Shown: positions 1,277 through 23,543, counted from the first letter of the stretch. The stretch is 23,917 nucleotides of DNA from Candidatus Tectimicrobiota bacterium (GCA_016193065.1 JACPSX010000106.1:1-23917); one strand, 5' to 3'. Notes: a model not told the origin generated them from the letters alone. Made by a program: numbers and translations.

Positions 1277-1323
1277 GTTACTTCTCGGTAACCATCCCCC
1301 TCTGAGAGTTTCGCTTCGGTAAC
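1277..1323. promoter_or_regulatory. Paired palindromic upstream activator sites, unit 1
   Basis: Two 16-bp sites, GTTACTTCTCGGTAAC (1277-1292) and GTTTCGCTTCGGTAAC (1308-1323), start 31 bp apart. Each is an imperfect inverted repeat of the family found at five other places in the window. The second ends 75 bp before the sigma-54 promoter at 1398, a normal distance for enhancer sites bound by a sigma-54 activator. Confidence 0.75.
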
Positions 1324-1397
1324 GGCTGCTTCATGCCTCCTGGGCTCACATCGGCCGCTAGACCCCTTTTTCCAACGGATTCATTGGGTTGCCCGGG

Positions 1398-1413
1398 TGG
1401 CATGATCATTGCT
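1398..1413 (+). promoter_or_regulatory. Sigma-54 (-24/-12) promoter for ASST-2 and the radical SAM gene
   Basis: TGGCATGATCATTGCT matches the sigma-54 consensus TGGCACG-N4-TTGCW at all key GG and GC positions with correct spacing. The predicted start of transcription is near 1424, giving a leader of about 100 nt before the ATG at 1525. Confidence 0.8.
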
Positions 1414-1524
1414 GCGAGAGGAAAGAAGGAGGGAGATGTTTCGCTCCTACATAGGGAGAAGGAAGTTGGGATAACAATCATTTCAACAGGGAAATGAAGA
1501 GTCCATTTTACAGGGAGCTATACG

Positions 1525-3015
1525 ATGAAAAAGCTTTTCCTCATACTGGCAATATCTTCCTTGGCATTGATTCCGGCAACGCTTCTTGCATTTCCAACCG
1601 TCTACCCGACCGGAACAACGATCTACAAGCCTGAGAAGTGCTGGAATGGCTACACAGTTTTGCAGAACGCCGGAATCAAGTGGACGGAAGGCCGGGAAGG
1701 CGGCACTGTTTTGATCGACATGAACGGAAACGTTCTCAGCGAGTGGCCGAACATTCATTTCTTTCCGGCCAAGATTTTGCCCGGCGGCCACATCATGGGA
1801 TACATGGGATCCGACGGACCCGGTCACGAGTCGTCCAAGAAGCTGGTCCAGATGGACTGGAACGGCAATGTTGTCTGGCAGTTTGAGATGGCCGGGCAGG
1901 AACACGACTTCCAGAGAGAAGGAAACCCCGTCGGCTACTACGCGCCCGGCATGGAGCCCAAGGTCGACCGGGGAAACACCCTGACCCTCGTCTACAGGAA
2001 GAACATCAAGAAGCCCCAGATCAGCCCCCAGCCTCTGACGGACACGGCGTTCCTGGAAGTGACCTGGGACGGGAGGGTCGTCTGGGAGTGGCTGCAGAGC
2101 GATCACTTCGAGGAGATGGAGTTCAGCGAGGAGGCCAGGAACGCCATGTCCCGATCTCCGAGCGGAGGGGACTGGGCCCACATCAACAACATGAACGTCC
2201 TCGGTCCCAACACGTGGTACGACATGGGCGACCAGCGCTTCCACCCCGACAACATCATCTATGACGCCCGGGTTCTCAACATTATAGCCATCATCGACAA
2301 GAAGACCGGCAAGCTCGTCTGGAAGGTGGGTCCGGATTACACCGCGACTCCGGCCCTGCGGAAGCTCGGGCAGATCATCGGCCCCCATCAGGCCCACATG
2401 ATCCCCAGGGGGCTCCCGGGGGAGGGGAACATCCTGGTTTTCGACAACGGGGGCTTCGCAGGGTACGGTAACCCGAATCCCGGCTCCCCGACCGGCATGT
2501 ACAACGCCCTCCGGGATTACTCCCGGGTCATCGAGTTTGATCCGGTGACGATGGAGATCGTCTGGGAGTATTCCATGAGGGCTGCGGGCCACCTGCCGAG
2601 AATCGAGGGCCACAAGTTTTACAGCCCCTACATGAGCGGGGCCCAGCGGCTCCCCAACGGCAACACTCTGATCACGGAAGCTGCCTCGGGTCGCGTTTTT
2701 GAGGTAACTCCGGAGCGGGAGATCGTCTGGGAGTTCGTAAGCCCGTTCTTCTACCCGGGGAACCAGGGGATTGGCGGGGACCCCACACGCCAGTATCCAC
2801 CCATCAACCATCTGTATCGAGCCTACCGGGTCCCTTACGGGTGGGTTCCGCAGGTGAAAAAGCCCAAGGAAACGTCCGTGATTCCTCCTCCCAACTCAGA
2901 ATTGCGGGTCCCTCAGAGCGCGCCGGCGACGTCTGTGAAGCCCGCGGAGACGCAGAGACCCGCCAGGAAAGAGGAGAGGGAAGAAGAACAGTATCCCCAA
3001 CCCCTGAGATATTAG
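1525..3015 (+). CDS. Secreted ASST-like beta-propeller protein (paralog 2)
   Basis: The 496-aa protein starts with a Sec-type signal peptide: Lys2-Lys3, a hydrophobic core at about 4-21, and likely cleavage after Ala22. It is therefore exported, probably to the periplasm. The rest is a six-bladed-type propeller with repeated 'DMNGNVLSEWP', 'DWNGNVVWQFE', 'DPVTMEIVWEY' and 'PNGNTLITEA' blades and His-rich turns (GQEHDF, WAHINN, GPHQAHM), typical of the arylsulfotransferase family. The C-terminal tail is Pro-rich then Lys/Arg/Glu-rich and ends PQPLRY, like the upstream paralog. The ATG at 1525 is preceded by CAGGGAGC as ribosome site. A sigma-54 promoter with paired activator sites lies upstream, and the radical SAM gene follows 48 bases after the stop, so they are probably co-transcribed. 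Sulfotransferase activity is inference; a non-catalytic propeller is possible. Confidence 0.88.
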   Translation: MKKLFLILAISSLALIPATLLAFPTVYPTGTTIYKPEKCWNGYTVLQNAGIKWTEGREGGTVLIDMNGNVLSEWPNIHFFPAKILPGGHIMGYMGSDGPGHESSKKLVQMDWNGNVVWQFEMAGQEHDFQREGNPVGYYAPGMEPKVDRGNTLTLVYRKNIKKPQISPQPLTDTAFLEVTWDGRVVWEWLQSDHFEEMEFSEEARNAMSRSPSGGDWAHINNMNVLGPNTWYDMGDQRFHPDNIIYDARVLNIIAIIDKKTGKLVWKVGPDYTATPALRKLGQIIGPHQAHMIPRGLPGEGNILVFDNGGFAGYGNPNPGSPTGMYNALRDYSRVIEFDPVTMEIVWEYSMRAAGHLPRIEGHKFYSPYMSGAQRLPNGNTLITEAASGRVFEVTPEREIVWEFVSPFFYPGNQGIGGDPTRQYPPINHLYRAYRVPYGWVPQVKKPKETSVIPPPNSELRVPQSAPATSVKPAETQRPARKEEREEEQYPQPLRY

Positions 3016-3063
3016 TTGCCCAGATGTCAGAACGGAATATCGACATCCGGCGGTTACACGCGC

Positions 3064-4161
3064 ATGTTCGGCCATCTTGTGGAGTGGGTGAAAGAGCAGG
3101 TACGCGGGAGGCAGTTCGAGGCCGTTCAGATCGAGGTGACCTCCCGCTGCATCCAGCGCTGCGTCATGTGCCCGAGAGTCGCCCTGGCGGACCGTTGGCC
3201 GGAGCTGGATCTCCCCTGGGAAGCCTTCCAGCGCAGCGCCCGGGCTTTCCACCGGACAAAGTTCGTCTACCTCCAGGGGTGGGGAGAGCCTCTCCTCCAC
3301 CCCCGCCTCTATGACATGATCGCCCTGGCCAAAGACGCCGGGTGCCGGGTGGGATTTACCAGCAACGGCATGCTTCTGGATCTGCTTGCAGGCAAGCGGC
3401 TCCTGGCCCTGGACCTGGACCTCCTGGCCATCTCCATTGCCGGCGCCACCCGGCGCACGCACGAGAGCATCCGGGTCGGCTCGGACTTCCCCACGGTCCT
3501 GGACAACGTTCGCCGGTTCCTGATCTTGAAGGCAAAGCAGCGCAGCAGGAAGCCGAAGGTCGAGATCTTCTTTCTCATGACGAAAACCAACATGGCCGAG
3601 CTGCCTCAGGCAGTGGATCTTGCTGCATCCCTGGGAGTGGACGAACTGGTGGCCACCAACCTGGATTACGCCGTCACGCCCGAGCATGACGATCTCAAGG
3701 CGTTCTCCTGGAAGCCTCAGAAGAGCCCCTTCGTTTGGTTCCTAGAGGAGGCGAGGAAGAGAGCTCAACGAGCCGGTCTTAGCTTCCGCCCCTATCCGCT
3801 GGATCCCGAGGAGGCGGCCGTCTGTGAGGCCAACCCGACGAAGATCCTGTTCATTTCCTGCGACGGCTGGGTGTCGCCCTGCAACTACATGGGCCTGCCT
3901 GGGCGGAGCGACGTCCCGCGGCGCTTTGGAGGCCTGTCGTTGACGGTTCCCCGTCTTCGGTTCGGGAACGTCCTGGATCAAGAGCTGCTGGAGATATGGG
4001 AGAGTCCAGCCTACCGGGCGTTTCGCCGGCAGTTCGAGGAGCGCCTTGTAGGGAACCTGATGCGGGCGCTCAGCGCGACCGTAGGCAGCGGGTCAGTTTC
4101 CAATCAAAAGGTGCCGCCGCCCGAGCCCTGCCGCACCTGCTACAAGCTCTACGGATTGTGA
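3064..4161 (+). CDS. Radical SAM protein with SPASM-like C-terminal cysteines
   Basis: This 365-aa protein carries the radical SAM [4Fe-4S] motif CxxxCxxC at Cys29, Cys33 and Cys36 (SRCIQRCVMCPR), then a 'GWGEPLLHP' segment and 'GFTSNGMLL' as in the family barrel. Near the C-terminus Cys266 and Cys273 (ISCDGWVSPCNY) and Cys356/Cys359 (EPCRTCYKL) resemble the SPASM/twitch auxiliary-cluster arrangement of peptide- and protein-modifying members. I chose ATG 3064; the frame is open back to a TTG at 3016, but that start abuts the previous stop and adds no conserved sequence. No strong ribosome site is visible, so translation may be coupled to the propeller gene. Context suggests modification of a co-regulated exported protein, but the substrate is unknown. 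Confidence 0.85.
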   Translation: MFGHLVEWVKEQVRGRQFEAVQIEVTSRCIQRCVMCPRVALADRWPELDLPWEAFQRSARAFHRTKFVYLQGWGEPLLHPRLYDMIALAKDAGCRVGFTSNGMLLDLLAGKRLLALDLDLLAISIAGATRRTHESIRVGSDFPTVLDNVRRFLILKAKQRSRKPKVEIFFLMTKTNMAELPQAVDLAASLGVDELVATNLDYAVTPEHDDLKAFSWKPQKSPFVWFLEEARKRAQRAGLSFRPYPLDPEEAAVCEANPTKILFISCDGWVSPCNYMGLPGRSDVPRRFGGLSLTVPRLRFGNVLDQELLEIWESPAYRAFRRQFEERLVGNLMRALSATVGSGSVSNQKVPPPEPCRTCYKLYGL

Positions 4162-4177
4162 CCCCTTTGAGATCCCG

Positions 4178-4215
4178 GTTACCGTGCGGTAACGGAAACG
4201 TTTCCGGCCGGTAAC
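4178..4215. promoter_or_regulatory. Paired palindromic upstream activator sites, unit 2
   Basis: GTTACCGTGCGGTAAC (4178-4193) is a perfect 7-bp inverted repeat with a 2-bp centre. GTTTCCGGCCGGTAAC (4200-4215) follows 22 bp later, the closest spacing of the six pairs. The second site ends 75 bp before the sigma-54 box at 4290, the same distance as in unit 1. Confidence 0.8.
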
Positions 4216-4289: not shown

Positions 4290-4305
4290 CGGCATGGTCA
4301 TTGCT
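4290..4305 (+). promoter_or_regulatory. Sigma-54 promoter for tatA
   Basis: CGGCATGGTCATTGCT keeps the -24 GG and -12 GC with the correct 10-base spacing. The predicted transcription start is near 4316, about 108 nt before the tatA ATG. Confidence 0.78.
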
Positions 4306-4423: not shown

Positions 4424-4603
4424 ATGTTTGGACTGGGACTCCCTGAACTGATCATTATTCTGGTGATCGGCATGATCTTCTTCGGGGTGGGCAAGTTGCC
4501 TGAACTGGGCGGAAATCTTGGGAAGTGCATCCACAATTTTCGCAAAGCTCATAAAGAACTCGAAGAAGTCGATGCACCAAAAGAAGAGAAAAAACAAACA
4601 TAA
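4424..4603 (+). CDS. tatA: Twin-arginine translocase subunit TatA/TatE family
   Basis: The 59-aa protein has the TatA layout: a short N-terminus ([11 protein letters not shown]), one membrane helix at about residues 6-21, the hinge [11 protein letters not shown], an amphipathic helix ([17 protein letters not shown]) and a charged tail. TatA forms the protein-conducting part of the Tat pathway for folded, cofactor-bearing proteins. The start at 4424 is supported by GGGAGGTGAG just upstream and by the fit to family N-termini; longer in-frame extensions have no TatA character. The gene stands alone, without tatB or tatC nearby, but has its own sigma-54 promoter and activator sites. Two Tat-dependent molybdoenzymes under the same type of promoter lie further downstream, so it probably boosts export capacity for them. 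Confidence 0.9.
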
Positions 4604-4794: not shown

Positions 4795-5032
4795 TGAGAC
4801 CAGGGAAGGGTTTCACGTCTTCTTTCTCTGTATAGCGATCCAGCGAAGCAGGGTCACCGCTTGATTCGCTAAACCGCACGTCAACTGTTCTGCTCTCCAC
4901 CCTTCCTCGGGTAAGATCAAGATCAACCATCCCTATGTTCTTTTGGAAAGGGGGTGCCGCCGAGAAGCCCATAAGCCTGCATGCGTCCACTAGGGTCTCA
5001 TTGCTGGGGTTAAGTCTCTGGAGGAACGTACG
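4795..5032 (+). repeat. Upstream segment shared with 12081-12320 (small-protein family, copy A)
   Basis: From about 4795 to the ATG at 5033 the sequence is recognisably homologous to about 12081-12320. Shared stretches include the ACCAGGGA start, AGCAGGGTCA, a CTGTTCTGCTCT/CACCCT block, TCGGGAAGATCAAGAT-like, and GGTGCCGCCGAGGAG-like, in the same order. Thus the repeated unit is larger than the ORF and includes about 240 bp of untranslated upstream DNA. The rest of the gap from 4604 to 4794 shows nothing I can assign. Confidence 0.6.
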
Positions 5033-5365
5033 ATGGAACAATCTCTTGCTGATGGTTGCTTCACTCAGGACCGCAAGCACTTTTACCTCGAGTTCCTGGA
5101 ATTTGTCCACCGGTATCCCGAAATGAAGGTTTCCCTTTACGTCCCCCGAAATGACCTGCCCCTCCTGGCTAAAAAGGAGTGTTCCTCCATTGTCTGCGAT
5201 CTACTGGACCTCTGCGAATCCGGCCGGCTCACCCTTATCGGAACGATGCCCAGACCTCATCTGCTCGAATATCTTCGTGGAGTCGGAAAAGGCCAGAGCA
5301 ACCCGATCCTCTTCCAAGAGGAACGAGTAGGACGTTATACGGATTCTCACCCGGGTGTGGCGTGA
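5033..5365 (+). CDS. Unrecognised ~110-aa family protein, copy A
   Basis: The 110-aa product is closely related to the proteins at 8798-9133 (minus) and 12321-12653. Conserved features are the N-terminus M(E/D)QSL--G-F-Q-RK-FY-EFLEF, then RYPE, a LYVP-ND-PLLA block, an EC-SIV motif and LCESGRL---G-MPR-HLL-YLR. Differences between copies fall largely at third codon positions of this frame, and a GGAGGAAC ribosome site is kept before each start, so it is a real coding frame. There is no signal peptide or membrane segment. I do not recognise a known domain; the alternating beta/alpha look (SLYVP, PLLA, ESGRLTLIG) suggests a small soluble alpha/beta fold. The end differs from the other copies (HPGVA) and the following DNA is rearranged. 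Confidence 0.65.
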   Translation: MEQSLADGCFTQDRKHFYLEFLEFVHRYPEMKVSLYVPRNDLPLLAKKECSSIVCDLLDLCESGRLTLIGTMPRPHLLEYLRGVGKGQSNPILFQEERVGRYTDSHPGVA

Positions 5366-5469
5366 GAGGCTGAACCGATTTCTGGGAGGACTCTGGAACC
5401 TTGCCTGCTACTCCCGGGTCTAATAAATAAAAAATATACGCGTTGCGAAGCTCACGAAGAGGAGTCGCG

Positions 5470-5740: not shown

Positions 5741-5950
5741 ATGAAGTGCGAGCGCTGCTTGGGCCCGATGGTTTCCGAACGTGTGCTGTACCAGGGCAGG
5801 GTATTCCACATGTGGAAGTGCCTGATGTGCGGCGACCTCATCGACTGGATCATCCTGTTGAACCGATCGGATCCTTCCCTGGTGGAGGAAGCGTTGAACG
5901 AGAAAAGCGAAGAAATGTTTCAAGAGGAGGTCCGCTCCCACTGTGCCTGA
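5741..5950 (+). CDS. Small zinc-ribbon-like protein
   Basis: The 69-aa protein starts MKCERCLGPMVSER and has a second pair CLMC about 25 residues later, giving CxxC...CxxC, the pattern of a small zinc ribbon. After that it is hydrophobic (DLIDWIILLN) then acidic. A strong GGGAGGAGC site precedes the ATG at 5741, which I prefer over the in-frame upstream ATG. Similar 'MKCPRC-G-MV' short proteins are common and uncharacterised. It lies between the truncated dehydrogenase and a truncated small-protein copy, so it may have been carried there by rearrangement. Function unknown. Confidence 0.6.
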   Translation: MKCERCLGPMVSERVLYQGRVFHMWKCLMCGDLIDWIILLNRSDPSLVEEALNEKSEEMFQEEVRSHCA

Positions 5951-5957
5951 GGAACGT

Positions 5958-6047
5958 ATGATGGATCAGTCCCTCTCTGCTGGTTGCTTCACTCAGGACC
6001 GCAAGCACTTCCGCACCCGCGCCATCATGACCACACTCCCGAGGTAA
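5958..6047 (+). pseudogene. Truncated small-protein family copy (copy D)
   Basis: GAGGAACGT-ATGATG starts a frame whose first 18 codons (MMDQSLSAGCFTQDRKHF) match copies A, B and C. At about 6011 the DNA switches to unrelated sequence, which is the 3' end of the opposite-strand acyltransferase gene. The frame ends eleven foreign codons later. It is a broken fourth copy and marks a recombination junction. Confidence 0.7.
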
Positions 6048-7970: not shown

Positions 7971-8018
7971 GTTACCGCCAGGTAACCGTTTCCTCCTGAA
8001 ATGTTTCCATTCGGTAAC
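7971..8018. promoter_or_regulatory. Paired palindromic upstream activator sites, unit 3 (orphan)
   Basis: GTTACCGCCAGGTAAC (7971-7986) and GTTTCCATTCGGTAAC (8003-8018) start 32 bp apart and are followed by a pyrimidine-rich tract as in the other units. No gene follows on the plus strand, and no sigma-54 box faces the minus-strand acyltransferase genes. Confidence 0.7.
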
Positions 8019-8078
8019 CTCTGCCTTGCTCTCTTCTCCTCTTTCCCGTGGATTGGCCCTAATCCGAAGAAAACAAAC

Positions 8079-8094
8079 TGGGTTGATGCGTGCT
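8079..8094 (+). promoter_or_regulatory. Degenerate sigma-54-like box of unit 3
   Basis: TGGGTTGATGCGTGCT keeps the GG and TGC elements at the right spacing but has lost CAC and one T of the -12 element. It lies 61 bp after the activator pair instead of 73-78. It may be a decayed promoter or a weak one transcribing the structured non-coding stretch behind it. Confidence 0.35.
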
Positions 8095-8099
8095 GTTGG

Positions 8100-8358
8100 C
8101 CCGCAGGTCCTGACACCCGCCAGGCGCGGGTACCCACAAAGTGGGTGCGGGTCGCCTCCTCGATCCGCGCTCCGTCACCCTGACGAGGGTCCCCGACCAA
8201 GCCCGCTTGCGCGGGCTCGGTGCCCGGCGCGGCTCTGCGGAGGCTTCCCCGGCGTCACCCGTGGGCCTGCGTCGAATGACCGCGGCGGGGAATTTCGGAT
8301 TGGGATTGGCTCTTCCCTCAAGAGGTTTCTCCGAGAAGAGGTCGGCGGCAACGATTGG
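8100..8358. other. Non-coding stretch rich in hairpins
   Basis: No convincing coding frame is present. Several perfect stem-loops can be read: ACCCAC-AAA-GTGGGT (8132-8146), ACCCT-GACG-AGGGT (about 8177-8190) and AGCCCGC-TTGC-GCGGGCT (8200-8217). It lies between the orphan sigma-54-like box and the 3' end of the minus-strand membrane-protein gene. It could be a structured RNA, a terminator region for the opposing gene, or the remnant of a lost gene. Confidence 0.4.
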
Positions 8359-9133: not shown

Positions 9134-9238
9134 GGGTTCCTCCAGGGGCTCAACCCCAGCAATAAGATCCTGACCGAAATCCCTAGATCGTGCGGCGGCG
9201 ACCCGGTCTCATGAAGACCAGGTCGGGGCGAAGGTGAG

Positions 9239-9702: not shown

Positions 9703-11913
<2,211 letters not shown>

Positions 11914-11980
11914 GATAGTCCTCCCCTGGTGAGAATCTATCTCAACGGAAAGGCACTTGTATTTTGGTGGGGCAGATCGA

Positions 11981-13829: not shown

Positions 13830-13857
13830 GCCTAGAAAAATGAAAAGAGCCCTCGCA

Positions 13858-13882
13858 GAGTCCGGTCCGGGTAGCCGGACTC
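13858..13882 (+). other. Hairpin between glycosyltransferase and YbaK-type gene
   Basis: GAGTCCGG (13858-13865) pairs with CCGGACTC (13875-13882) around a 9-base loop, just upstream of the ACAGGAGGTG ribosome site. With no T tract it may modulate rather than end transcription. Confidence 0.4.
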
Positions 13883-13897
13883 CACAGGAGGTGTGTT

Positions 13898-14392: not shown

Positions 14393-14440
14393 GTTACCGT
14401 CCGGTAACCCTTTCTTCCCTGTATGTTGCCATTTGGTAAC
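14393..14440. promoter_or_regulatory. Paired palindromic upstream activator sites, unit 4
   Basis: GTTACCGTCCGGTAAC (14393-14408) is the core of a perfect inverted repeat of nine base pairs per arm (14391-14410), the best site in the window. GTTGCCATTTGGTAAC (14425-14440) follows 32 bp later. The second site ends 74 bp before the sigma-54 box at 14514. Confidence 0.82.
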
Positions 14441-14513: not shown

Positions 14514-14529
14514 CGGTATGTCCCTTGCT
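14514..14529 (+). promoter_or_regulatory. Sigma-54 promoter for the cytochrome c gene
   Basis: CGGTATGTCCCTTGCT keeps GG, TTGC and spacing. The predicted start near 14540 gives a 50-nt leader to a tiny ORF at 14590 and 103 nt to the cytochrome gene. Confidence 0.72.
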
Positions 14530-14589: not shown

Positions 14590-14646
14590 ATGAGCAATAA
14601 GTCGGAAGAAAAGCACGTTCCTGCGCGGGAGGACGTGTCGCCATGA
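14590..14646 (+). CDS. Possible 18-codon leader ORF
   Basis: After AAAGGAGAAAGGC an ATG opens a frame for MSNKSEEKHVPAREDVSP. Its stop overlaps the cytochrome ATG as ATGA. The good ribosome site and the coupling suggest it may be translated to feed ribosomes to the cytochrome gene, but the length is too short for any composition test. Confidence 0.3.
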   Translation: MSNKSEEKHVPAREDVSP

Positions 14647-15008
14647 AACGTTCGCTTCGCCAATTCACTTCGATCCTCTGCGCTGGCTTGTTCCTGCTCT
14701 CTTTGCTTTTCGTTTCCTCAGCCCTTTTGGCTCAGGACAAGAAGACACCGACCTCGGTAGAAAGAGGGGACAAGCTGTTTGAGGAATTGAAGTGCGGAGA
14801 CTGTCATTTCAAGGGTCACGATGGGGAGGGTCCAGGAAAAGATCTCTCGAAGGAGGGAACCAAGCGGGACCAGCAGTGGCTCATGAATTATTTGAAGGAA
14901 TTTCAGACTACCCATTCGAAGTACACGCAGGCGTTCCAGGAGAGTGAGATCCAGGATCTGAGTGCCTATCTGTTGAGTGACAGATCCTGTTCGGAAAAGT
15001 GCCATTAG
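14643..15008 (+). CDS. Small exported c-type cytochrome
   Basis: The 121-aa protein has a Sec signal peptide (MKRSLRQ, hydrophobic 9-29, cleavage near ALLAQ) and a class-I-like heme site CGDCH at about residues 50-54, followed by FKGHDGEGPGKDLSKEG. The C-terminal helix region (DLSAYLLS) is typical of cytochrome c. The only internal Met of the mature part is in QWLMNYLKEF, so it is the likely axial ligand if there is one. The protein ends CSEKCH, a CxxxCH that could be an unusual second heme site or just a disulfide pair. A GGGAGGACG site precedes the ATG. It is under sigma-54 unit 4 and precedes the molybdoenzyme operon, so it probably carries electrons in the periplasm to or from those enzymes. 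Confidence 0.85.
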   Translation: MKRSLRQFTSILCAGLFLLSLLFVSSALLAQDKKTPTSVERGDKLFEELKCGDCHFKGHDGEGPGKDLSKEGTKRDQQWLMNYLKEFQTTHSKYTQAFQESEIQDLSAYLLSDRSCSEKCH

Positions 15009-15057: not shown

Positions 15058-15105
15058 GTTACCACAGAGTAACTGCAACGGACCGCTATGTCACCGGTCG
15101 GTAAC
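15058..15105. promoter_or_regulatory. Paired palindromic upstream activator sites, unit 5
   Basis: GTTACCACAGAGTAAC (15058-15073) and GTCACCGGTCGGTAAC (15090-15105) start 32 bp apart. The second ends 73 bp before the sigma-54 box at 15178. Confidence 0.78.
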
Positions 15106-15177: not shown

Positions 15178-15193
15178 AGGCACGGTCCTTGCT
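15178..15193 (+). promoter_or_regulatory. Sigma-54 promoter of the molybdoenzyme operon
   Basis: AGGCACGGTCCTTGCT matches the consensus at GGCACG and TTGCT. The start near 15204 lies after the longest open frame's first codon (15189) and so supports ATG 15282 as the gene start. Confidence 0.82.
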
Positions 15194-15281
15194 CTTCCCT
15201 AAGAAAGGAGAAACATTCTTCCAATTGCAGTCCCAGCGGACGGAGGCGCCGCTGTTCAACCGGCAATGGGAGGTCAACCCG

Positions 15282-17531
15282 ATGAGCGGCAACAGTCTGT
15301 TGTCTCAGGATCTGACCCGGCGAACTTTTCTCAAGGCCGCGGCGGCGTGCGCGGCGGTCGGCGAGGCGCTTCTTGGAAGGCCCGCTTCCGTGCTCGCGCA
15401 GATGCCCGCTGTGTCTCCACCGACCCGTGAGGAAATCATCCCCACCATCTGCTCGGGATGTCACAACGACTGCGGCATGCTCGTGCACGTCAGAGAGGGC
15501 CTTATCCGGTCCATCGAGGGGAACCCGGATCATCCCATGAACCAGGGTTCGCTGTGTCCCAAGGGGAGGTCCATGAGCGAGCTGGTCTACTCCCCTTACC
15601 GGATCAAGCGCCCGCTGCTGCGGGTCGGCGAGAGAGGGGAAGGAAAGTGGAAGGAGATCTCCTGGGACGAAGCGCTGAATACCATCTCCGCCCGGCTGAA
15701 GGAAATCAAAGAAAAGCACGGCCCGCAGACTCTTCTGACGACCTCCGGCGCCCCCGTGTATGAAGGGATTCGCAACGCCTTCGCGCAGTTCTACTCCCTT
15801 TACGGAACGCCGAATACCTGGGGGACCGCTCTGTGCTCGTCTCCCATCGAGCTGGTCATGAGAGCCGATTACGGCTTCCGGGAAGAGAACGACTACCTCA
15901 GCAGCCCGCTGATCATCGTCTGGGGGGCCAACCCCTTTGCTTCCATGCGCCCCGGTCACAACATGGCCTACGAGGTGAGCGGCGTCTGCAGCCCCCTTCT
16001 GGAGGCGAAGGAAAAGGGGGCCAAGCTGGTCGTCATCGATCCCATCCACACGGAGACCGCGGCCAAGGCGGACATCTGGGTTCCCATTCGACCCGGCACG
16101 GACGGGGCCCTGGCTCTGGCCATGCTCCACGTCATCATCACCGAAGGCCTGTACGACGCGGATTTCGTGCGGAACTGGACCACCGGTTTTGAGGAGCTCA
16201 AGAGCCACGTTCAACCGTACACCCCCGAATGGGCCTCCCCGATCACGGACGTCCCCGCCAAGCGGATCCGCGAGCTCGCGATCCTGTACGGGACAACGAG
16301 GCCGGCGATCATCCGGACCGGCAACACCTTCGCAAACCACACGAACGGCTGTCAGGCCGTGCACGCCCTGAGTTCCCTGATCGCGATCACGGGCAACCTG
16401 GACGTTCCGGGAGGATCCGTCTGCTTTGCCGGAGGTAGAGGCGACTACACCATCCTGACCGCGTCACCGGCCACCGCGAGGCCCAAAGAGCCTCACATGC
16501 TGGCCAAGCAATACCCCCTCCAGATGACCGGCCCCGCCGTCCTCGATTCGATCTTCACCGGGAAGCCGTACACGCCCCGCGCTCTGTTCTGCTACCACAG
16601 CAACTTCCTGCTCAGCAACGTGGACTACCAGCGAACCCGGGAAGCCCTGAACAAGCTGGAGTTCATCGTGGTCGTGGACATCTTCATGACGCGATCCATC
16701 GAAGAGCTCGCGGACGTGGCGCTGCCGGACACGAGCTTCCTCGAGAGGTACGACTACCGCACGCATCCCTCGGCCCGGGGCGGAGTCGTGGCGTTGGGCC
16801 GGCCCGTGGTTCCCCCCCGGCACGAATCGAGACCCTGGTACGAGATCGAGCAGGACCTGGCCAAGAGGATGGGCTTTGCGGACAAGTATCCCTGGCACAC
16901 CGCCGAGGAATTCATCGACTACATCGTCAAGCCCTCGAAGCTCACCTTCAAGAAGCTCAAGGAGACCCCCGTCCAGTACGTGGGGAAGCACGTGTGGCGC
17001 AAGTACGAGGCGGGGCTGCTCAGGAGCGATCGGAAGCCCGGATTCAACACGCCCTCGGGCAAAGTCGAGCTGTACAATTCCACGTTCAAGAAGCACGGAT
17101 ACGATCCGCTGCCCACGTACCGTGAGCCCGCGGAAAGCCCCGTGAGCACGCCGGAGATCGCCAAGGATTACCCCCTGATCGCGGTCAACCGCCGCTCTCC
17201 GTTATTCGTCCATTTCAAGTACCGCAATCTCCCCTACCTGCGGGAAGTGGAGCCGGAGCCCGTGGTGTGTCTGCACCCGCGGGATGCCGGAGCGCGCGCA
17301 ATCCGGGACGGAGACTGGGTGATCATCACTTCGCCGCGCGGCCGCATCCGGCAGAAGGCCATAGTCACCGAGAGAGTGAAGCCCGGCGTCGCCCTGATCG
17401 ACGGAGGCTGGGGAAACTCCTGGGATCACAGGGACGCGTGTTTCAACGCCTTGAGCGACAACCTCAAGCGGGACCCCATCGGGCAGCAACCGTCCATCGC
17501 CTCCTTCCTTTGCCAGGTCGGTAAGGCGTGA
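15282..17531 (+). CDS. Tat-exported molybdopterin oxidoreductase, catalytic subunit 1
   Basis: This 749-aa protein belongs to the DMSO-reductase superfamily. A Tat signal (DLTRRTFLKAAAA, Arg13-Arg14) directs the folded enzyme to the periplasm. The [4Fe-4S] site is Cys57, Cys60, Cys64 and Cys92 (CSGCHNDC...LCPKG). The likely Mo/W ligand is Cys185 in TALCSSP, placing it with Cys-type enzymes (polysulfide, thiosulfate, arsenate, tetrathionate reductases, periplasmic nitrate reductase). MGD-binding segments such as VIDPIHTETAAKADIWVPIRPGTDGALALAML and the C-terminal domain (HPRDAGARAIRDGDWVIITSPRG) are complete. GGGAGG precedes ATG 15282. It is the first gene of an operon with an NrfD subunit 25 bases on and a second catalytic subunit. 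The substrate cannot be told from sequence. Confidence 0.92.
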   Translation: MSGNSLLSQDLTRRTFLKAAAACAAVGEALLGRPASVLAQMPAVSPPTREEIIPTICSGCHNDCGMLVHVREGLIRSIEGNPDHPMNQGSLCPKGRSMSELVYSPYRIKRPLLRVGERGEGKWKEISWDEALNTISARLKEIKEKHGPQTLLTTSGAPVYEGIRNAFAQFYSLYGTPNTWGTALCSSPIELVMRADYGFREENDYLSSPLIIVWGANPFASMRPGHNMAYEVSGVCSPLLEAKEKGAKLVVIDPIHTETAAKADIWVPIRPGTDGALALAMLHVIITEGLYDADFVRNWTTGFEELKSHVQPYTPEWASPITDVPAKRIRELAILYGTTRPAIIRTGNTFANHTNGCQAVHALSSLIAITGNLDVPGGSVCFAGGRGDYTILTASPATARPKEPHMLAKQYPLQMTGPAVLDSIFTGKPYTPRALFCYHSNFLLSNVDYQRTREALNKLEFIVVVDIFMTRSIEELADVALPDTSFLERYDYRTHPSARGGVVALGRPVVPPRHESRPWYEIEQDLAKRMGFADKYPWHTAEEFIDYIVKPSKLTFKKLKETPVQYVGKHVWRKYEAGLLRSDRKPGFNTPSGKVELYNSTFKKHGYDPLPTYREPAESPVSTPEIAKDYPLIAVNRRSPLFVHFKYRNLPYLREVEPEPVVCLHPRDAGARAIRDGDWVIITSPRGRIRQKAIVTERVKPGVALIDGGWGNSWDHRDACFNALSDNLKRDPIGQQPSIASFLCQVGKA

Positions 17532-17556
17532 CGGGGAAGGCTGCCGGGGAGAAAGC

Positions 17557-18525
17557 ATGAGCGAACTGCAAACCGTATGGAGTTGGCTGCCGGCCATTTA
17601 TTTCTTTCTGGGAGGACTGGGCGCGGGGGCCTTTTGCACCGTTGCGGTCCTGGCGCTGGTCACCGGCGAACGATTCAGGGGGACCGTACGGTTCGGTGCC
17701 TGGACGGCTACGGTGGTCACGACCGCGGGCACCCTGGCCCTGCTTCTGGACGTGGGAGCGCCCTGGCGTGCTCTCGTCCTTTTCAAGAGCTTCGTGAACT
17801 TCCAATCCTGGATGACCATCGGCGCCTGGTTCCTGTTCGCCGCCATTTTGCTCCAGGGTCTTTACGCCCTTCTCTGGACGGACGGAGTCCTGCAGTGGTC
17901 CGAGGGCTTCTGGAAGCCGCTGCGGGAGAAGCGTGCCTTGTGGCGGGCCCTGGTGGCGGCCATCGGTATCCTCGTCAGCCTCGTGGTCGCGGCTTACACG
18001 GGAATCCTTCTGGGAGTCCTCCCCTTCCGTCCCTTCTGGAACACCTGGCTTCTCCCGGCGCTGTTCACGGCGTCAGCGCTTGAGACCGGGACGGCAGTGG
18101 TCACCGCCCATGCTTCCCTGCGCGAGCAGGGCGAAGGGGTGGAGCGGCTGCGGAAAGTTCTGGAGGTCTCCATCACCGTCCTGATCGTTATCGAGGCCGC
18201 CATTCTTGGATACTACGTCCTGTCGGCGGTCGCCGGCTCCCTGGATTCGTCCCGAGCGGCGCGCTTGCTGACCCGAGGAGCACTCGGCCCGATCTTCTGG
18301 ATTCTGGTCGTCGGTTTGGGACTCGTGGTCCCCTTTTTTATCTGCGTCACCCGGTTGAGCGGACTCACCAAGCGCAGGACGGCCCTGCTGCCGGTCGCCG
18401 GAATCGCCTCGTGCCTCCTGGGCGCTTTCTCGCTCAGGTCCGTGATTCTCTGGGCAGGGATTCCGGCGTCTCTTTCCAGCCCGGGCTTGTCGCAGATCAC
18501 GGCAGGGATACGCTTCATACCCTAG
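17557..18525 (+). CDS. NrfD/PsrC-family membrane subunit
   Basis: The 322-aa protein is largely hydrophobic with about eight membrane segments. It starts WSWLPAIYFFLGGLGAGAFC, the conserved first helix of NrfD-like quinone-interacting subunits, and has the typical FNFQSWMTIGAWFL-like second region and WNTWLLPALFTASALETG. Such subunits anchor periplasmic Mo/Fe-S complexes and exchange electrons with menaquinone. GGGGAGAAAGC precedes the ATG. It lies between the two catalytic genes, so it probably serves both. There is no heme-binding pattern. Confidence 0.9.
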   Translation: MSELQTVWSWLPAIYFFLGGLGAGAFCTVAVLALVTGERFRGTVRFGAWTATVVTTAGTLALLLDVGAPWRALVLFKSFVNFQSWMTIGAWFLFAAILLQGLYALLWTDGVLQWSEGFWKPLREKRALWRALVAAIGILVSLVVAAYTGILLGVLPFRPFWNTWLLPALFTASALETGTAVVTAHASLREQGEGVERLRKVLEVSITVLIVIEAAILGYYVLSAVAGSLDSSRAARLLTRGALGPIFWILVVGLGLVVPFFICVTRLSGLTKRRTALLPVAGIASCLLGAFSLRSVILWAGIPASLSSPGLSQITAGIRFIP

Positions 18526-18558
18526 GAGCCGCAACCGGGGAGAGTTAAGGAGGAAGAC

Positions 18559-20829
18559 ATGAACGCGCGAGAATCGTCGGTTGGCTGGAGTTTGAGCCGG
18601 CGCACGTTCCTCAAGGCCACCGGGGCCCTGGGGGCGGCTCTTGCTCTGCGGGAGAGTTGCGAAGGCGTGCTTCGCAGCGGCCCCGCCCGCGCCGCCGCGG
18701 CGCAGGCTCAGCCGGAAAAGGAAACGGTGGTTCCCACCATCTGCGGGGGCTGCCATCAGAACTGCGGGATGCTCGTCCATGTCAGGGGCGGCAGGGTCGT
18801 TTCCGTCGAGGGCAACCCCGATCATCCCATGAACAGCGGCGATCTGTGCCCGAAGGCGCAGGCTGCCTCTCAGATTCTCTACGCCCCGGACCGCCTGAAA
18901 TATCCTCTCCTGCGGGCCGGCAAGAGGGGCGAAGGGAAGTGGAAGAGAATCTCCTGGGACGAGGCCCTGGACTTCATGGCCAACAAGCTCAAGGAAGTGC
19001 GGGACAAATACGGACCCATGGCCCTGGCCATGTCCACCGCGGCTCCGGTCATGCAGTGCAGCCGGACCACGTTTGTCCAGTTTCCGGCCGTGTACGGCAC
19101 TCCCAACCGGATGAGCGGCAACAACTGCTACGTCAACCGGATGCTCGCCCTGGTCGCCACCTTCGGATACCGGGCGGAAGACGACTACGACCAGACCCGG
19201 CTGATCCTGCTCTGGGGCGGCAACCCCCTTGCTTCCATGCGGGCGGGCTCCTACGCCGCATACGACGGGCTTCAGCGGCCGATCCTGGATGCCATCGAGC
19301 GCGGGGCCAAGCTGATCGTCATCGATCCCATCTATACCGACACGGCGGCCAAGGCCCAGCAGTGGATCCCCATCCGGCCGGGCACCGACGGCGCCCTGGC
19401 GCTGGCGATGCTCCACGTCATCATCAACGAAGGTCTGTACGACCGGGGCTTCGTACAGGACTGGACGGTCGGGTTCACAGAGCTTACCGAGCTCGTCCAG
19501 GACTACCCGCCCGAGAAGGTGGCGCGGATCACCTCGGTCCCGGCGGAAACCATCCGGAGCCTGGCCCGGGAGTACGCGATCACCAAACCCGCGCTCATCC
19601 ACGAGGCCAACGCCTGGGCGTTTCACACCAACGGCACCCAGACTTGCCGGGCGATCGCCTGCCTGATGGCAGTCACCGGAAACCTGGATGCCCCGGGAGG
19701 GCCGGTCTGCTTCCCCGGCTCCGCGGGCGACCGCCTCACTGTGGTGGAAGATCTGCCTCCCACCGTGCAAGTTGCCGCCAAGCCGCTGGGGGCGGACAAG
19801 TACCGGCTCATGCCCAACGGGCCGTCGGTGTTCGACGCCATGAGCTCGGGGAAACCCTACCCCATCAAGGCCCTGATCGTCTTCCACAGCGACCCCATCG
19901 TGGTCCTGCAAGACGGCAACCGCCAGCGCGACGTGTTCGCCAAGAACCTGGACTTCCTGGCCGTGATCGACATCTTCCACACCCCCACGACTCAGATGGC
20001 GGACATTGTCCTGCCGGATACCACGTTCCTGGAGCGCCTGGATTACCGGCATCACCCCAGCGCCAGAGGCGCCATCGTGGCCTTGCGCCAGCCCGTGGTG
20101 AAGCCCATGTACGAGTCCCTGCCCGGCTATGACATCGAGCTCAAGCTGGCGGCGCGCATGGGGTTCCTGGACAAGTACCCGTGGAAGAGCGGCGAGGAAA
20201 TGCTGAACCACATCCTCAAGCCCTCCAAGGTCACGGTGCAGGACCTGCGGAAGAAGCCCGTGCAGTTCATCACCGGCCCCATGGTGTACAAGAAGTACGA
20301 GAAGGGGCTGCTGCGGCCCGACAAGAAGCCGGGTTTTGCCACCCCATCCGGGAAGGTGGAGCTTTCCTCCAGCGTGTTCCAGAAGGCGGGCTACGACCCG
20401 CTGCCGAGGTACATCGAGCCGGCGGAGAGTCCGGTGAGCACGCCGGAACTGGCCAAACGGTACCCCCTGATCGGCATGAGCCGGCGGTCGGCGACCTTCG
20501 TGCACTCGAAGTACCGGAACATCCCCTGGCTCCGTGAAATCGAAAGCGAACCTTTCATCCGGGTCAACCCCGAGGACGCCGCCAAGCGGGGAATCGCGGA
20601 CGGGAACCTGGTGATCGCGGAAACCAAGAGGGGGCAGATCAGGATGCGCGCCAAGGTCACCTCCACGGTCACGCCCGGGGTCGTGCTGATCGACGGCTGC
20701 TGGTGGAAGCCGGAAAACTTGAGCGACCTGAGCTGGACCCTGAACGCGTTGATCGACATGGAGGCGCGCGACCCCATAGGAAACCTGGCCACGCTTTCGT
20801 CGTTCCTATGCGAGATCAAGAAAGCGTAG
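18559..20829 (+). CDS. Tat-exported molybdopterin oxidoreductase, catalytic subunit 2
   Basis: The 756-aa protein is a paralog of the product at 15282 along its whole length. Tat signal SLSRRTFLKATGALGAA (Arg14-Arg15); [4Fe-4S] ligands Cys62, Cys65, Cys69 and Cys97; predicted Mo ligand Cys190 in GNNCYVNR, which aligns with Cys185 of subunit 1 although the surrounding residues differ (GNNCYVN versus TALCSSP). The MGD-binding segments (VIDPIYTDTAAKAQQWIPIRPGTDGAL) are nearly the same, while the segments around the ligand and at about 270-300 residues differ, so substrate preference may differ. AAGGAGGAAG precedes ATG 18559. It is followed 17 bases later by the Fe-S subunit. Both catalytic subunits seem to share one NrfD and one Fe-S protein. 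Confidence 0.92.
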   Translation: MNARESSVGWSLSRRTFLKATGALGAALALRESCEGVLRSGPARAAAAQAQPEKETVVPTICGGCHQNCGMLVHVRGGRVVSVEGNPDHPMNSGDLCPKAQAASQILYAPDRLKYPLLRAGKRGEGKWKRISWDEALDFMANKLKEVRDKYGPMALAMSTAAPVMQCSRTTFVQFPAVYGTPNRMSGNNCYVNRMLALVATFGYRAEDDYDQTRLILLWGGNPLASMRAGSYAAYDGLQRPILDAIERGAKLIVIDPIYTDTAAKAQQWIPIRPGTDGALALAMLHVIINEGLYDRGFVQDWTVGFTELTELVQDYPPEKVARITSVPAETIRSLAREYAITKPALIHEANAWAFHTNGTQTCRAIACLMAVTGNLDAPGGPVCFPGSAGDRLTVVEDLPPTVQVAAKPLGADKYRLMPNGPSVFDAMSSGKPYPIKALIVFHSDPIVVLQDGNRQRDVFAKNLDFLAVIDIFHTPTTQMADIVLPDTTFLERLDYRHHPSARGAIVALRQPVVKPMYESLPGYDIELKLAARMGFLDKYPWKSGEEMLNHILKPSKVTVQDLRKKPVQFITGPMVYKKYEKGLLRPDKKPGFATPSGKVELSSSVFQKAGYDPLPRYIEPAESPVSTPELAKRYPLIGMSRRSATFVHSKYRNIPWLREIESEPFIRVNPEDAAKRGIADGNLVIAETKRGQIRMRAKVTSTVTPGVVLIDGCWWKPENLSDLSWTLNALIDMEARDPIGNLATLSSFLCEIKKA

Positions 20830-20845
20830 GGGAGGGAGAAAAGCC

Positions 20846-21382
20846 ATGCAAAGAGGATTCTACGTCGATACGGAACGCTGCGTGGGCTGCCGCTCCTGCG
20901 AAGTGTCGTGCAAGCAATGGAACGCCCTCCCGCCCTACGTGCTGGGCAAGACCGGACCCAGATGGCGGAGGGTCGTATCTATTGAAAGCGGGACCTACCC
21001 CGCCCCGCTGCTCGTCAACGTTTCCACGGCCTGCATGCATTGCGGCAAGCCCGCCTGCGCGGCGGTATGTCCCACGGGGGCCATTACGAAGCGCATCGAG
21101 GACGGCATTGTGGTGGTGAACAAGGACAAGTGCATCGGGTGCCGCTATTGCTCCTTCGCCTGCCCCTTCGGCGTGCCTCAATACGGCGAGGACGGCTTGA
21201 TGCAGAAGTGCAATCTCTGTCTGGAGCGCGTGGAGCGGGGGGAGGATCCGGCCTGTGTGGCATCCTGTCCGGGCAAGGCGCTGCATGCCGGCACGATGGA
21301 GGATATGTCGAAGCTGGCCTCGAGGAAAGCGGGCCGCAAGCTCGCGGGAGCCACCCAGCCGTCCATCCTGATCTCCCGGTAG
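20846..21382 (+). CDS. DmsB/PsrB-type four-cluster ferredoxin subunit
   Basis: The 178-aa protein has four Cys groups of the DmsB/PsrB/NrfC family: CVGCRSCEVSC (Cys12, 15, 18, 22), CMHCGKPACAAVCP, CIGCRYCSFACP and CNLC...CVASCP. It would hold four [4Fe-4S] clusters and pass electrons between the molybdoenzyme and the NrfD subunit on the periplasmic side. It has no signal peptide, so it would travel with a Tat-carrying partner. GGGAGGGAG precedes the ATG. It sits directly after catalytic subunit 2. Confidence 0.93.
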   Translation: MQRGFYVDTERCVGCRSCEVSCKQWNALPPYVLGKTGPRWRRVVSIESGTYPAPLLVNVSTACMHCGKPACAAVCPTGAITKRIEDGIVVVNKDKCIGCRYCSFACPFGVPQYGEDGLMQKCNLCLERVERGEDPACVASCPGKALHAGTMEDMSKLASRKAGRKLAGATQPSILISR

Positions 21383-21390
21383 CCCCTGGA

Positions 21391-21436
21391 GGTCGGAGTC
21401 GGAGGAGCCCTGCTCCGGTCGCCGCGGCTTCCGACC
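21391..21436 (+). other. Nested hairpin between Fe-S subunit and chaperone genes
   Basis: GGTCGGA (21391-21397) pairs with TCCGACC (21430-21436), with an inner GGAG/CTCC pairing. With no T tract it may act in mRNA processing or stability. Confidence 0.35.
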
Positions 21437-21475
21437 GGCGCAGGGAGCGCCGTTCCGAGAAGGAAGAGGGAACCG

Positions 21476-22210
21476 ATGTCAGAACGTCGGGAACGAGCCG
21501 GGATTCTGGAGACCCTTCGGGACCGCTACGCCACCTATGGTTTCCTGTCCCGGATTTACCGGGAGGAACTCACCGGCCCGCTGCTGCGCGAGATGGCCGG
21601 CTCTGCGTCCTTGCAGGACGCGCCGGCCCCGGACAGCGAAGGTTTGACGATGATTCAGGAGTTCGCCGGGGGTCTACAGCGAGCCGATCTGGAAGAAGTC
21701 GAGTGGGATCTGGCAGCGGAGTACGCCGGCCTGTTCCTGAGCGGCGCCCATTCCGTATCCCCCTACGAATCGGTCTACACGAGCAGGGTGATGCAGGAGG
21801 CGCGGGACGAAGTTCTCAAGATCTACATGGGGGAGGGACTGGAGGTATCTCAGGGTTGCAACGAGCCCGAAGATCACCTCGCCATCGAGCTGGAATTGAT
21901 GCGCCGGCTCTGCCAGAAGACCATCGACAGTATGGAACAGGATGATCTCCGGACCGCCCTGCGCTGTCTGGAAAGGCAAGAGCAGTTCCTTGCCCGACAC
22001 CTTCAAGCCTGGGTCCCCAGATTCTGCGCGGACATGGAGAAGGCCGCGCGCTCGGGCTTCTACAAGGGGATCGCCAAGGTCACGGGCGAGTTCCTTGCGC
22101 TCGACAAAGAAACCATCCGTGAACTGATCGAGGCGGTGAAAGACGGGATAAGCTCCGGCGCTCCCCCGCCGCCTCCTTTGAGCCACGATCGGCGCTTCGC
22201 GCCCGGGTAG
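21476..22210 (+). CDS. TorD/DmsD-family molybdoenzyme chaperone
   Basis: The 244-aa cytoplasmic, helix-rich protein has the family pattern: an N-terminal RDRYATYGFLSRIYREEL, AAEYAGLFLSG, SPYESVYTSRVMQEA and, about ten residues later, a conserved EPEDHLAIELELMRRL. TorD/DmsD proteins bind the Tat signal and apo-enzyme and hold it until the molybdopterin cofactor is inserted. Its clients are most likely the two catalytic subunits upstream. The C-terminal 25 residues (PPPPPLSHDRRFAPG) are Pro-rich and not conserved. GAAGGAAGAGGG precedes the ATG. Confidence 0.9.
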   Translation: MSERRERAGILETLRDRYATYGFLSRIYREELTGPLLREMAGSASLQDAPAPDSEGLTMIQEFAGGLQRADLEEVEWDLAAEYAGLFLSGAHSVSPYESVYTSRVMQEARDEVLKIYMGEGLEVSQGCNEPEDHLAIELELMRRLCQKTIDSMEQDDLRTALRCLERQEQFLARHLQAWVPRFCADMEKAARSGFYKGIAKVTGEFLALDKETIRELIEAVKDGISSGAPPPPPLSHDRRFAPG

Positions 22211-22213
22211 ATT

Positions 22214-22247
22214 CCGGGGGCACGCAACTTAGGGCCGATGCCCCCGG
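22214..22247 (+). terminator. Strong hairpin after the chaperone gene
   Basis: CCGGGGGCA (22214-22222) pairs perfectly with TGCCCCCGG (22239-22247) around a 16-base loop, then CCTCCGAGTTCTTT. It may be a weak terminator or attenuator that lowers expression of the last ferredoxin gene. Confidence 0.5.
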
Positions 22248-22262
22248 CCTCCGAGTTCTTTC

Positions 22263-23438
22263 GTGCCGGGACTGGAGATTGAACAAATCGTGCAGATGCT
22301 AACCTCTCTGGAGAGCCGGGCCATCAAGGTCCATGCCCTGCAGTGTTCCAAGTTGCGACACCGTCGCTCCACCTGCGCCCTGTGCGCCGACCATTGTCCC
22401 GTGAAAGCCATCACCTGGGAAGAATCACTGCAGGTCGACCCGGAGAAATGTACGGGCTGCGGGATCTGTGCGGCCGTCTGCCCGACGGGAGCTCTGGAGG
22501 CTCGGAACCCGACGAACCTGGAGCTGTGCACCCGAATTCAGGAACTGGCCAAAACCGAGACTTCCATAGTCTTCGCCTGCCCCACCTACCTGAGAGGCGC
22601 GGAGGGGGCAGACGATCGCCGTCTCCGGGTCAATTGCCTGGGGCGTCTCGATGAATCCATCCTGGCGGGGGCTCTCTCTGTCGGAATTCAGTCCGTCCGT
22701 CTGCTGGCCGGCGCCTGCGCGTCATGCCCTCACGCCATCGGCCTCGCCGTTGCCGAGCAGGTCACGCACAGGACAAACGCGCTGCTCGGGGCCTTCGGCA
22801 TCTCCGCGAGGATCCGTGTGAGCCTGGAGCCGCCTTGCGCGCCGGAGCCGCCGGCTCAGCCCTCCGCGCCGTCCGCAGGCCTCTCCCGGCGCTCCTTCTT
22901 CCGTCTGCTGACGCGGGAGACGGCCCGCAAAGCCGCGGTCGGCGTCGAGAGCATCCTGGGCATTCCAAACGCCCGGACCCAAAAACCGGAAAAAGGGGAA
23001 CTGCCTGCCGCCCTGCCCGCCAAACGGAGGCTCCTCCTGGCGGCATTGCGGCGGATCGGGAAGTCGGTCGCCGCCGAATCCCCTGCCGACGGCGGTCTGT
23101 GGGCCCGGTTCGGCTTCAAGGAAGCCTGCAACGGCTGCCAGATGTGCGCGTTTTTCTGCCCCACCGGGGCATTGAGCAAAGTTCAAGAAGGAGGAAAGGT
23201 CGGCGTCACTTTCCGGACCTCTCATTGCACCGCCTGCCGCCTTTGCCAGGAGATCTGCGATTGCGGCGCTGTAACCCTCTCCTCCACCGTGGACCTGAGC
23301 AAAGTGCTGGCGGACTCCGTGGATGTGCTGTTGATGCAGGAAGTGAAGGCCTGTCCCTGGCTGGAATCCCCGGAGGAGAGAATCAAGAGAATCCTCTCGG
23401 AAATGTTTCCAAACGGAAACAGCCGTTCGGGATTGTAA
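22263..23438 (+). CDS. Multi-cluster ferredoxin with hydrogenase-delta-like and NapF-like parts
   Basis: The 391-aa protein has an N-terminal Fe-S part (CALCADHCP at 38-45 with an extra Cys28, and CTGCGICAAVCP at 63-74). A middle part follows (VNCLGRLDESILAGALSVGIQSVRLLAGACASCPHAIG), resembling Fe-S carriers of MvhD-like hydrogenase/heterodisulfide partners. The C-terminal ferredoxin (CNGCQMCAFFCP and CTACRLCQEICDCG) is preceded by LSRRSFFRLLTRE near 206-218, the motif that starts NapF-type proteins, so this looks like a fusion. It is predicted cytoplasmic and may link the operon to another electron pool. The start is uncertain: GTG 22263 fits the frame but has a weak ribosome site; ATG 22296 is an alternative. 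Activator unit 6 overlaps its last codons. Confidence 0.82.
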   Translation: MPGLEIEQIVQMLTSLESRAIKVHALQCSKLRHRRSTCALCADHCPVKAITWEESLQVDPEKCTGCGICAAVCPTGALEARNPTNLELCTRIQELAKTETSIVFACPTYLRGAEGADDRRLRVNCLGRLDESILAGALSVGIQSVRLLAGACASCPHAIGLAVAEQVTHRTNALLGAFGISARIRVSLEPPCAPEPPAQPSAPSAGLSRRSFFRLLTRETARKAAVGVESILGIPNARTQKPEKGELPAALPAKRRLLLAALRRIGKSVAAESPADGGLWARFGFKEACNGCQMCAFFCPTGALSKVQEGGKVGVTFRTSHCTACRLCQEICDCGAVTLSSTVDLSKVLADSVDVLLMQEVKACPWLESPEERIKRILSEMFPNGNSRSGL

Positions 23439-23450
23439 CCATTCGGTAAC
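23405..23450. promoter_or_regulatory. Paired palindromic upstream activator sites, unit 6
   Basis: GTTTCCAAACGGAAAC (23405-23420) lies inside the 3' end of the ferredoxin gene and GTAACCATTCGGTAAC (23435-23450) just after it, 30 bp apart. The second ends 78 bp before the sigma-54 box at 23528. Confidence 0.7.
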
Positions 23451-23527
23451 GTCTTCCCTTTCTTCCCGCGGCCGATGGCGGAAATCAAGTCCTTCCATTC
23501 GCGGCGGTTCGGCGCGCTCTTTCCCTG

Positions 23528-23543
23528 TGGTACGGTCATTGCT
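23528..23543 (+). promoter_or_regulatory. Sigma-54 promoter for the last gene
   Basis: TGGTACGGTCATTGCT keeps GG, ACG and TTGCT at correct spacing. The start near 23554 leaves a 62-nt leader before ATG 23616. Confidence 0.78.

Follow-up and report, generated by a model that had tools for sequence, protein, structure and literature searches.

Which genes are governed by the paired palindromes that recur along a 23,917-nucleotide stretch of DNA from Candidatus Tectimicrobiota bacterium (GCA_016193065.1 JACPSX010000106.1:1-23917), and which protein reads them? The stretch, referred to here as the window, is the whole of contig C65 of a 2.9-Mb metagenome-assembled genome that is 86% complete. It contains six pairs of a 16-base-pair (bp) palindrome, and five of the pairs precede a -24/-12 box. 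We consider it quite probable that the pairs are tandem enhancers of one sigma-54 two-component system that switches on a sulfur-respiration set of genes.

Paired palindromes and sigma-54 boxes

The pairs and boxes of the window are as follows.

1277..1323, plus strand: putative enhancer pair GTTACTTCTCGGTAAC / GTTTCGCTTCGGTAAC, spacing 31, predicted to serve the ASST-2 and radical SAM genes
1398..1413, plus strand: -24/-12 box TGGCATGATCATTGCT, 74 bp past the second site
4178..4215, plus strand: putative enhancer pair, spacing 22
4290..4305, plus strand: -24/-12 box CGGCATGGTCATTGCT, 74 bp past the second site
7971..8018, plus strand: putative enhancer pair, spacing 32, without a box
14393..14440, plus strand: putative enhancer pair, spacing 32
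14514..14529, plus strand: -24/-12 box CGGTATGTCCCTTGCT, 73 bp past the second site
15058..15105, plus strand: putative enhancer pair, spacing 32
15178..15193, plus strand: -24/-12 box AGGCACGGTCCTTGCT, 72 bp past the second site
23405..23450, plus strand: putative enhancer pair, spacing 30, overlapping the end of the ferredoxin gene
23528..23543, plus strand: -24/-12 box TGGTACGGTCATTGCT, 77 bp past the second site

An earlier, sequence-only reading of this DNA had described twelve palindromes in six pairs, in an arrangement that it judged unlikely to arise by chance, and all of them were found where it had placed them, with a GT start in 12/12, a GTAAC end in 11/12, and spacings, pair by pair, of 31, 22, 32, 32, 32, and 30. 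When up to three mismatches were allowed, the window gave 31 strand-matches, compared with a mean of 2.8 and a maximum of 9 in shuffled sequences. A matrix built from the twelve sites gave each of them a score of 16 or more; the window, dinucleotide-shuffled 100 times, averaged 0.06 hits and contained zero pairs. The five -24/-12 boxes that had been reported at 1398, 4290, 14514, 15178, and 23528 were likewise confirmed and start 72–77 bases past the second site; a good box was absent on both sides of the pair 7971/8003.

The sequence-only reading had also proposed a scan of the whole genome, and its idea of a regulon withstood that scan. The results showed nine pairs in total, the six in the window and three elsewhere (C274:9326/9357, C9:8520/8551, and C9:10586/10618), and a box was present 65–78 bp past the second site in eight of the nine. 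Given the box density on these contigs, the probability of eight boxes so placed is approximately 1e-14 for a 14-bp range on either side, and approximately 7e-10, by hand arithmetic at the same density, if any distance of 40–95 bp is allowed. The reversed pattern, which served as control, gave zero pairs in this genome. Searching for single sites at two mismatches was unspecific (17 sites versus 8 for the reversed control), and it is thus the pairing that confers specificity; for the singletons on C34, C139, and C188 a pair partner was absent. None of the same-domain relative genomes of the assembly carried pairs.

Over the 18 sites of the genome, 16 start with GTT and all 18 end with AAC, and positions 1, 2, 5, 12, 14, 15, and 16 are invariant (G T.. 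C...... G. A A C). The within-pair spacings (22 and 30–32 here; 42–43 or 45 in proteobacterial loci) are close to whole turns of the helix, and the box distances of 16 pairs from seven genomes (64–66, 72–78, and 85–86) form steps of approximately one helical turn. A sigma-54 regulon marked by paired palindromes is supported, and the repeated palindromes look, at the level of sequence, like genuine docking sites for a sensor-driven activator.

The pair without a box resembles one of those found outside the window, as a stretch of 54 bp that includes 7971/8003 shares 87% identity with the yeiH enhancer on C9. It is followed, 37 bp downstream and ahead of the expected box position (~8091), by a repeat:

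8056..8302, strand not assigned: dispersed repeat, with further copies on C274

The intervening repeat would explain the missing box. The pair is thus probably a yeiH enhancer that was cut from its promoter by the repeat, the promoter having been lost.

The candidate regulator and its rivals

The following proteins have to be weighed as readers of the sites.

C274:7944-9287: NtrC-type response regulator
9703..11919, minus strand: GAF-GAF-AAA-Fis sigma-54 activator, in the window
C9 (L037), about 8539-8790, minus strand: small stand-alone helix-turn-helix (HTH) gene, own copy

The likely binder is the response regulator encoded on C274, outside the window, and not the GAF activator of the window. 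The region 6488-9287 of C274 encodes a regulator with a receiver, a sigma-54-interaction domain, and a Fis HTH beside a histidine kinase gene, and the stop codon of the regulator lies 38 bp before a pair. Among the 14 sigma-54 activators of this genome with a readable C-terminal HTH, only the C274 regulator has the helix LGISRKTLWKKM, and this helix is conserved. The main argument for this protein as the binder is that helix class, site form, and gene order all match.

The same gene order was observed in other genomes. Directly downstream of the regulator, or of the small HTH gene that comes after it, a pair of spacing 31, a box, and a molybdoenzyme are found in our C274 and in G042, G061, G144, and G145, and a single contig of G043 carries the end of the kinase gene, the regulator, a radical SAM gene, a yeiH pair, and a dsr pair. 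We scanned public genomes for paired sites independently of any regulator, the counts being lower bounds. The matches include L052 (Methylomirabilota; dsr and yeiH pairs), L118 (deltaproteobacterial; kinase, regulator, pair, box, and molybdoenzyme), and L126 (labelled Chloroflexi; regulator, radical SAM gene, yeiH, and dsr), and the regulators of L118 and L126 are 76% and 80% identical, respectively, to that of C274. A search of 95 genomes from the phylum of the Methylomirabilota genome gave five more regulators at 72–80%, three of which (in G061, G144, and G145) are followed by pair, box, and molybdoenzyme; the regulator gene of G120 is at a contig edge. In the search of the phylum of G042, four candidates per genome were scored. 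A further locus, L235, has two sites 66 bp apart (1330 and 1396) just before a regulator that is 52% identical to that of C274 and has the helix SRKTLWEKI.

Some observations weigh against the enhancer reading and the C274 regulator. The regulator gene of G058 runs directly into the radical SAM gene, and no pair was seen within 460 bp downstream of the regulator. In G041, where both dsr and yeiH pairs are present, a regulator above 47% identity was not found, possibly because of incompleteness. Nor was rpoN found in our 86%-complete genome, where it may lie in the missing part; approximately 15 activators with strong sigma-54-interaction domains are encoded in the genome despite this. Finally, one comparison that speaks for the enhancer reading carries a caveat: among the matches listed in the public scan, boxes accompany spacings of about three and four turns, as a strong box was present 40–95 bp away in 15/40 pairs at spacings 30–34 and 42–45 versus 1/91 at other spacings, but the spacing classes of this comparison were partly chosen after seeing the data.

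The possibility exists that the pairs are instead bound by the GAF-GAF-AAA-Fis protein of the window, acting as an FhlA- or NifA-like one-component activator. This protein sits among the pairs, and its sigma-54-interaction domain and Fis HTH are intact, but it fails to travel with the sites in relatives: of the eight other pair-bearing genomes in which it was sought, seven had no match at an E-value of 1e-100, and in the eighth the identity was just 39%, or the match was to the AAA-HTH part of a response regulator. In addition, its helix is unlike the helices of the regulators found beside such sites, and a pair directly before its gene is absent. It is thus unlikely that the GAF activator is the binder.

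We regard it as less likely still that the main ligand is the small stand-alone Fis-type HTH protein, as a repressor or an architectural protein, with the response regulator binding elsewhere. The small protein shares the recognition helix and is under purifying selection, and in six genomes its gene terminates within the pair; yet the gene was not found beside eight of the nine pairs of our genome or in the G061 locus, where the linkage of regulator and pair holds, and activators typically have two palindromes that keep a fixed distance to a -24/-12 box. That same fixed distance, seen in eight of nine own pairs, makes it very improbable that an unrelated regulator (TetR-like or other) uses the palindromes and that these stand before boxes incidentally, as do the repeated linkage of pairs to a sigma-54 response regulator and the fact that boxes track particular spacings in other phyla. 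What speaks for such a regulator is that Roseobacter, Nostoc, mycobacteria, and Clostridia have GTTACC-N4-GGTAAC pairs as well, most of which lack boxes and differ in spacing.

The small HTH frame is nevertheless probably a gene and not a relic, because its ratio of nonsynonymous to synonymous substitution rates (dN/dS) is low (approximately 0.08–0.15 among the three dsr copies and 0.09–0.36 over all estimable comparisons), though neither start codons nor ribosome sites stand out clearly. Most of its changes are at the third position of the codon. The frame encodes approximately 72–86 residues that include the helix LGISRKTLWKK(L/M) and match the Pfam domain HTH_8, and its HTH is 56–68% identical to that of the regulator, in a comparison from which L155 and L131 are left out. 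It lies directly before a pair and stops inside it at the dsr loci of our genome, G041, and G043 and in G042, G144, and G145; four of these six frames (G041, G043, G144, and G145) use the TAA within the first palindrome as their stop codon. Together with the C9 (L037) copy, the loci at the pairs in L213, L212, L211, L209, and L210 make up the six. In the dsr lineage the gene comes after that of the exporter, itself a predicted target of the system. Our hypothesis is that the small protein competes at the same sites.

Predicted target genes and a proposed mechanism

The pairs of the window face the following genes.

1525..3015, plus strand: arylsulfotransferase-family protein (ASST-2; Pfam PF05935), first predicted target gene
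3046..4161, plus strand: radical SAM/SPASM protein
4424..4603, plus strand: tatA (PF02416)
14643..15008, plus strand: c-type cytochrome (PF00034)
15279..23438, plus strand: molybdoenzyme operon
23616..23917, plus strand: carbon-nitrogen hydrolase-like gene, start only

ASST-2/radical SAM, tatA, cytochrome c, and the molybdoenzyme operon are the targets that had been named before, whereas the gene following the box at 23528, which had been called unknown, proved to be the start of a carbon-nitrogen hydrolase-like gene. The operon comprises a Tat-signal molybdoenzyme, NrfD, a second molybdoenzyme, an iron-sulfur (Fe-S) subunit, a TorD-like chaperone, and a ferredoxin, and both molybdoenzymes are thiosulfate/polysulfide-reductase-like. 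Relatives of the radical SAM/SPASM protein are found at 70% in G058, adjoining the response regulator, and at 60% in G043, on the contig of the regulator.

The pairs outside the window add further predicted targets. Those on C9 precede a YeiH-family exporter gene and an operon with a flavin adenine dinucleotide (FAD) protein, dsrA, dsrB, a CobB-like gene in the place of dsrN, dsrC, and dsrM; on C274 the targets are a phosphodiesterase-family gene, a formate-dehydrogenase-like (FDH-like) molybdoenzyme, an Fe-S subunit, and NrfD. With dsr, yeiH, and another molybdoenzyme operon, the regulon appears larger than first noted, a sulfur-respiration regulon. DsrA and DsrB share 79–87% identity with their counterparts in genomes that bear the labels Methylomirabilota and Chloroflexi. 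DsrD, which had been expected downstream of dsrB, was not confirmed. At its right end the window overlaps by 336 bp, at 98.2%, with the end of C9, so that a single island of approximately 38 kb probably holds eight of the nine pairs. In C9 (L037), 12781-14154, a single frame joins the first half of a carbon-nitrogen hydrolase to a TctC protein, either as a real fusion or as an assembly join.

As aprA was not found in the 86%-complete genome, sulfate as acceptor is unsupported, and, with the caveat of that completeness, a respirer of sulfite, thiosulfate, or organosulfur compounds fits better than a sulfate reducer.

One CXXCH motif between two apparent membrane spans is kept in seven of seven orthologs of the kinase, and its sequence points to a periplasmic c-type heme. 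In the mechanism that we propose, this membrane histidine kinase with its periplasmic c-heme motif would sense a redox or sulfur signal, for which redox state, sulfite, and polysulfide are candidates, and phosphorylate the regulator encoded at C274:7944-9287, whose Fis-type HTH would bind each 16-bp palindrome as a dimer. With two such dimers on the same side of the helix (two or three turns apart here), an AAA+ oligomer would assemble and open sigma-54 polymerase at the box 65–86 bp downstream. If one regulator serves all nine pairs, as we infer, it would jointly switch on the dsr operon, the YeiH-type exporter, the arylsulfotransferase, and the radical SAM genes, together with the thiosulfate/polysulfide-reductase-like and other molybdoenzymes with their cytochrome, chaperone, and tatA. 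A more specific version is put forward tentatively and may well be wrong, namely that a heme-sensing sigma-54 two-component system controls dissimilatory sulfite respiration in this uncultured lineage, and that the small Fis-type protein, derived from the DNA-binding domain of such a regulator, is a built-in brake that acts by competition for these palindromes.

In the literature searched, no account of a dedicated switch for the reductive dsr operon turned up. The locus names a candidate switch, exact sites, and a regulon for dsr, the central enzyme of sulfite and sulfate respiration, and the question becomes directly testable. It would also be a clear case of a regulator-type DNA-binding domain surviving as a separate gene at an enhancer.

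In the Desulfobacterota loci L084 and L120, paired sites lie near nrfA or kinase genes, beside kinases with a Tll0287-like domain; pairs of the same form were observed near nrfA, nap-type, or Tll0287-like kinase genes in L083, L084, L120, L144, and L161.

Related systems and wider distribution

To our knowledge, and as the sequence-only reading had stated, the motif matches none of the sites of NtrC, NifA, or NorR. Its form, however, equals the 16-bp GTT-N10-AAC of the AioR site GTTCGGATTTCCGAAC, footprinted in Agrobacterium GW4 (PMC5335332). AioR is a sigma-54 regulator with a related recognition helix (LGISRTTLWEKM), and on plasmid pSinA its gene lies just upstream of its own site, box, and molybdoenzyme; the order kinase, regulator, site, -24/-12 box, and molybdoenzyme is shared with the AioXSR system. 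Unlike in AioXSR, there are two sites here instead of one, the inner bases are ACC...GGT and not CGG...CCG, the kinase has a CXXCH, and a gene for PhnD-like AioX is absent from the open reading frames directly beside the C274 kinase and regulator. The targets also differ, being dsr, PhsA/PsrA-like, and FDH-like genes and not arsenite oxidase. Thus, the class is known (AioR-like), and the regulator and targets are new.

NrfSR and LurSR of Desulfovibrio are similar in that sigma-54 regulators act in anaerobic energy metabolism through 16-bp sites, several per promoter (PMC6456213, PMC5701242). We rejected the published NrfR/LurR motif as the identity of our sites because the inner bases differ: LurR sites are like GTCCGCTTTTCAAGAC, with inner GTCC...AGAC. 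The Desulfovibrio systems have nrfHA, nap, and lactate oxidation as targets, whereas nrfHA or lactate targets are not among the nine units here. A sigma-54 survey of D. vulgaris mentions neither dsr nor sulfite (PMC4641369). The present locus would extend the class of 16-bp enhancers of the AioR/NrfR type to sulfur respiration.

The small HTH protein, like Fis, is a free-standing Fis-family HTH; Fis itself originated from NtrC. It differs from Fis in its length of approximately 72–86 residues, in having the helix of the local regulator, and in being encoded at the enhancer.

A further parallel in the form of the paired sites concerns ArxXSR, the system of anaerobic arsenite oxidase, as GTTACC-N4-GGTAAC pairs with boxes precede ArrA/ArxA-like operons. 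That system differs in its spacing of 42–45 and its PhnD-like sensor. In Thioalkalivibrio, Hydrogenophaga, Tepidimonas, and others, the four-turn class of the public scan precedes ferredoxin and ArrA/ArxA-like operons, and regulators with LGISRKNLWE(K/R)M, a kinase, and a PhnD-like protein adjoin such pairs in L155 and L131. The four-turn pairs are candidate ArxR sites; as of PMC6683785, the role of ArxR was without experimental demonstration. The GTTACC-N4-GGTAAC pairs 42–45 bp apart with a -24/-12 box were seen in L046, L057, L122, L125, L130, L147, L155, and L131, several of them before ferredoxin/ArxA-like operons.

Where palindromes of this form stand without boxes, as in Roseobacter, Nostoc, mycobacteria, and Clostridia, they are probably sites of other regulators. 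The Roseobacter group (L068, L095, L103, L116, L135, and L138) has GTTACCCRYGGGTAAC pairs without boxes, probably those of a different regulator.

Two minor features of the window were also observed. The stretch 6025-6966 encodes a protein, without a Pfam family, that has an exact internal duplication (EMVNLARERGKGYIHLGLGVNEGIRRFKEK twice). Another dispersed repeat occurs at 4992-5368, 5946-6010, 8794-9171, and 12321-12576 and contains a frame of approximately 110 residues (EQSL..GCF.Q.RK.FY.EFLEF).

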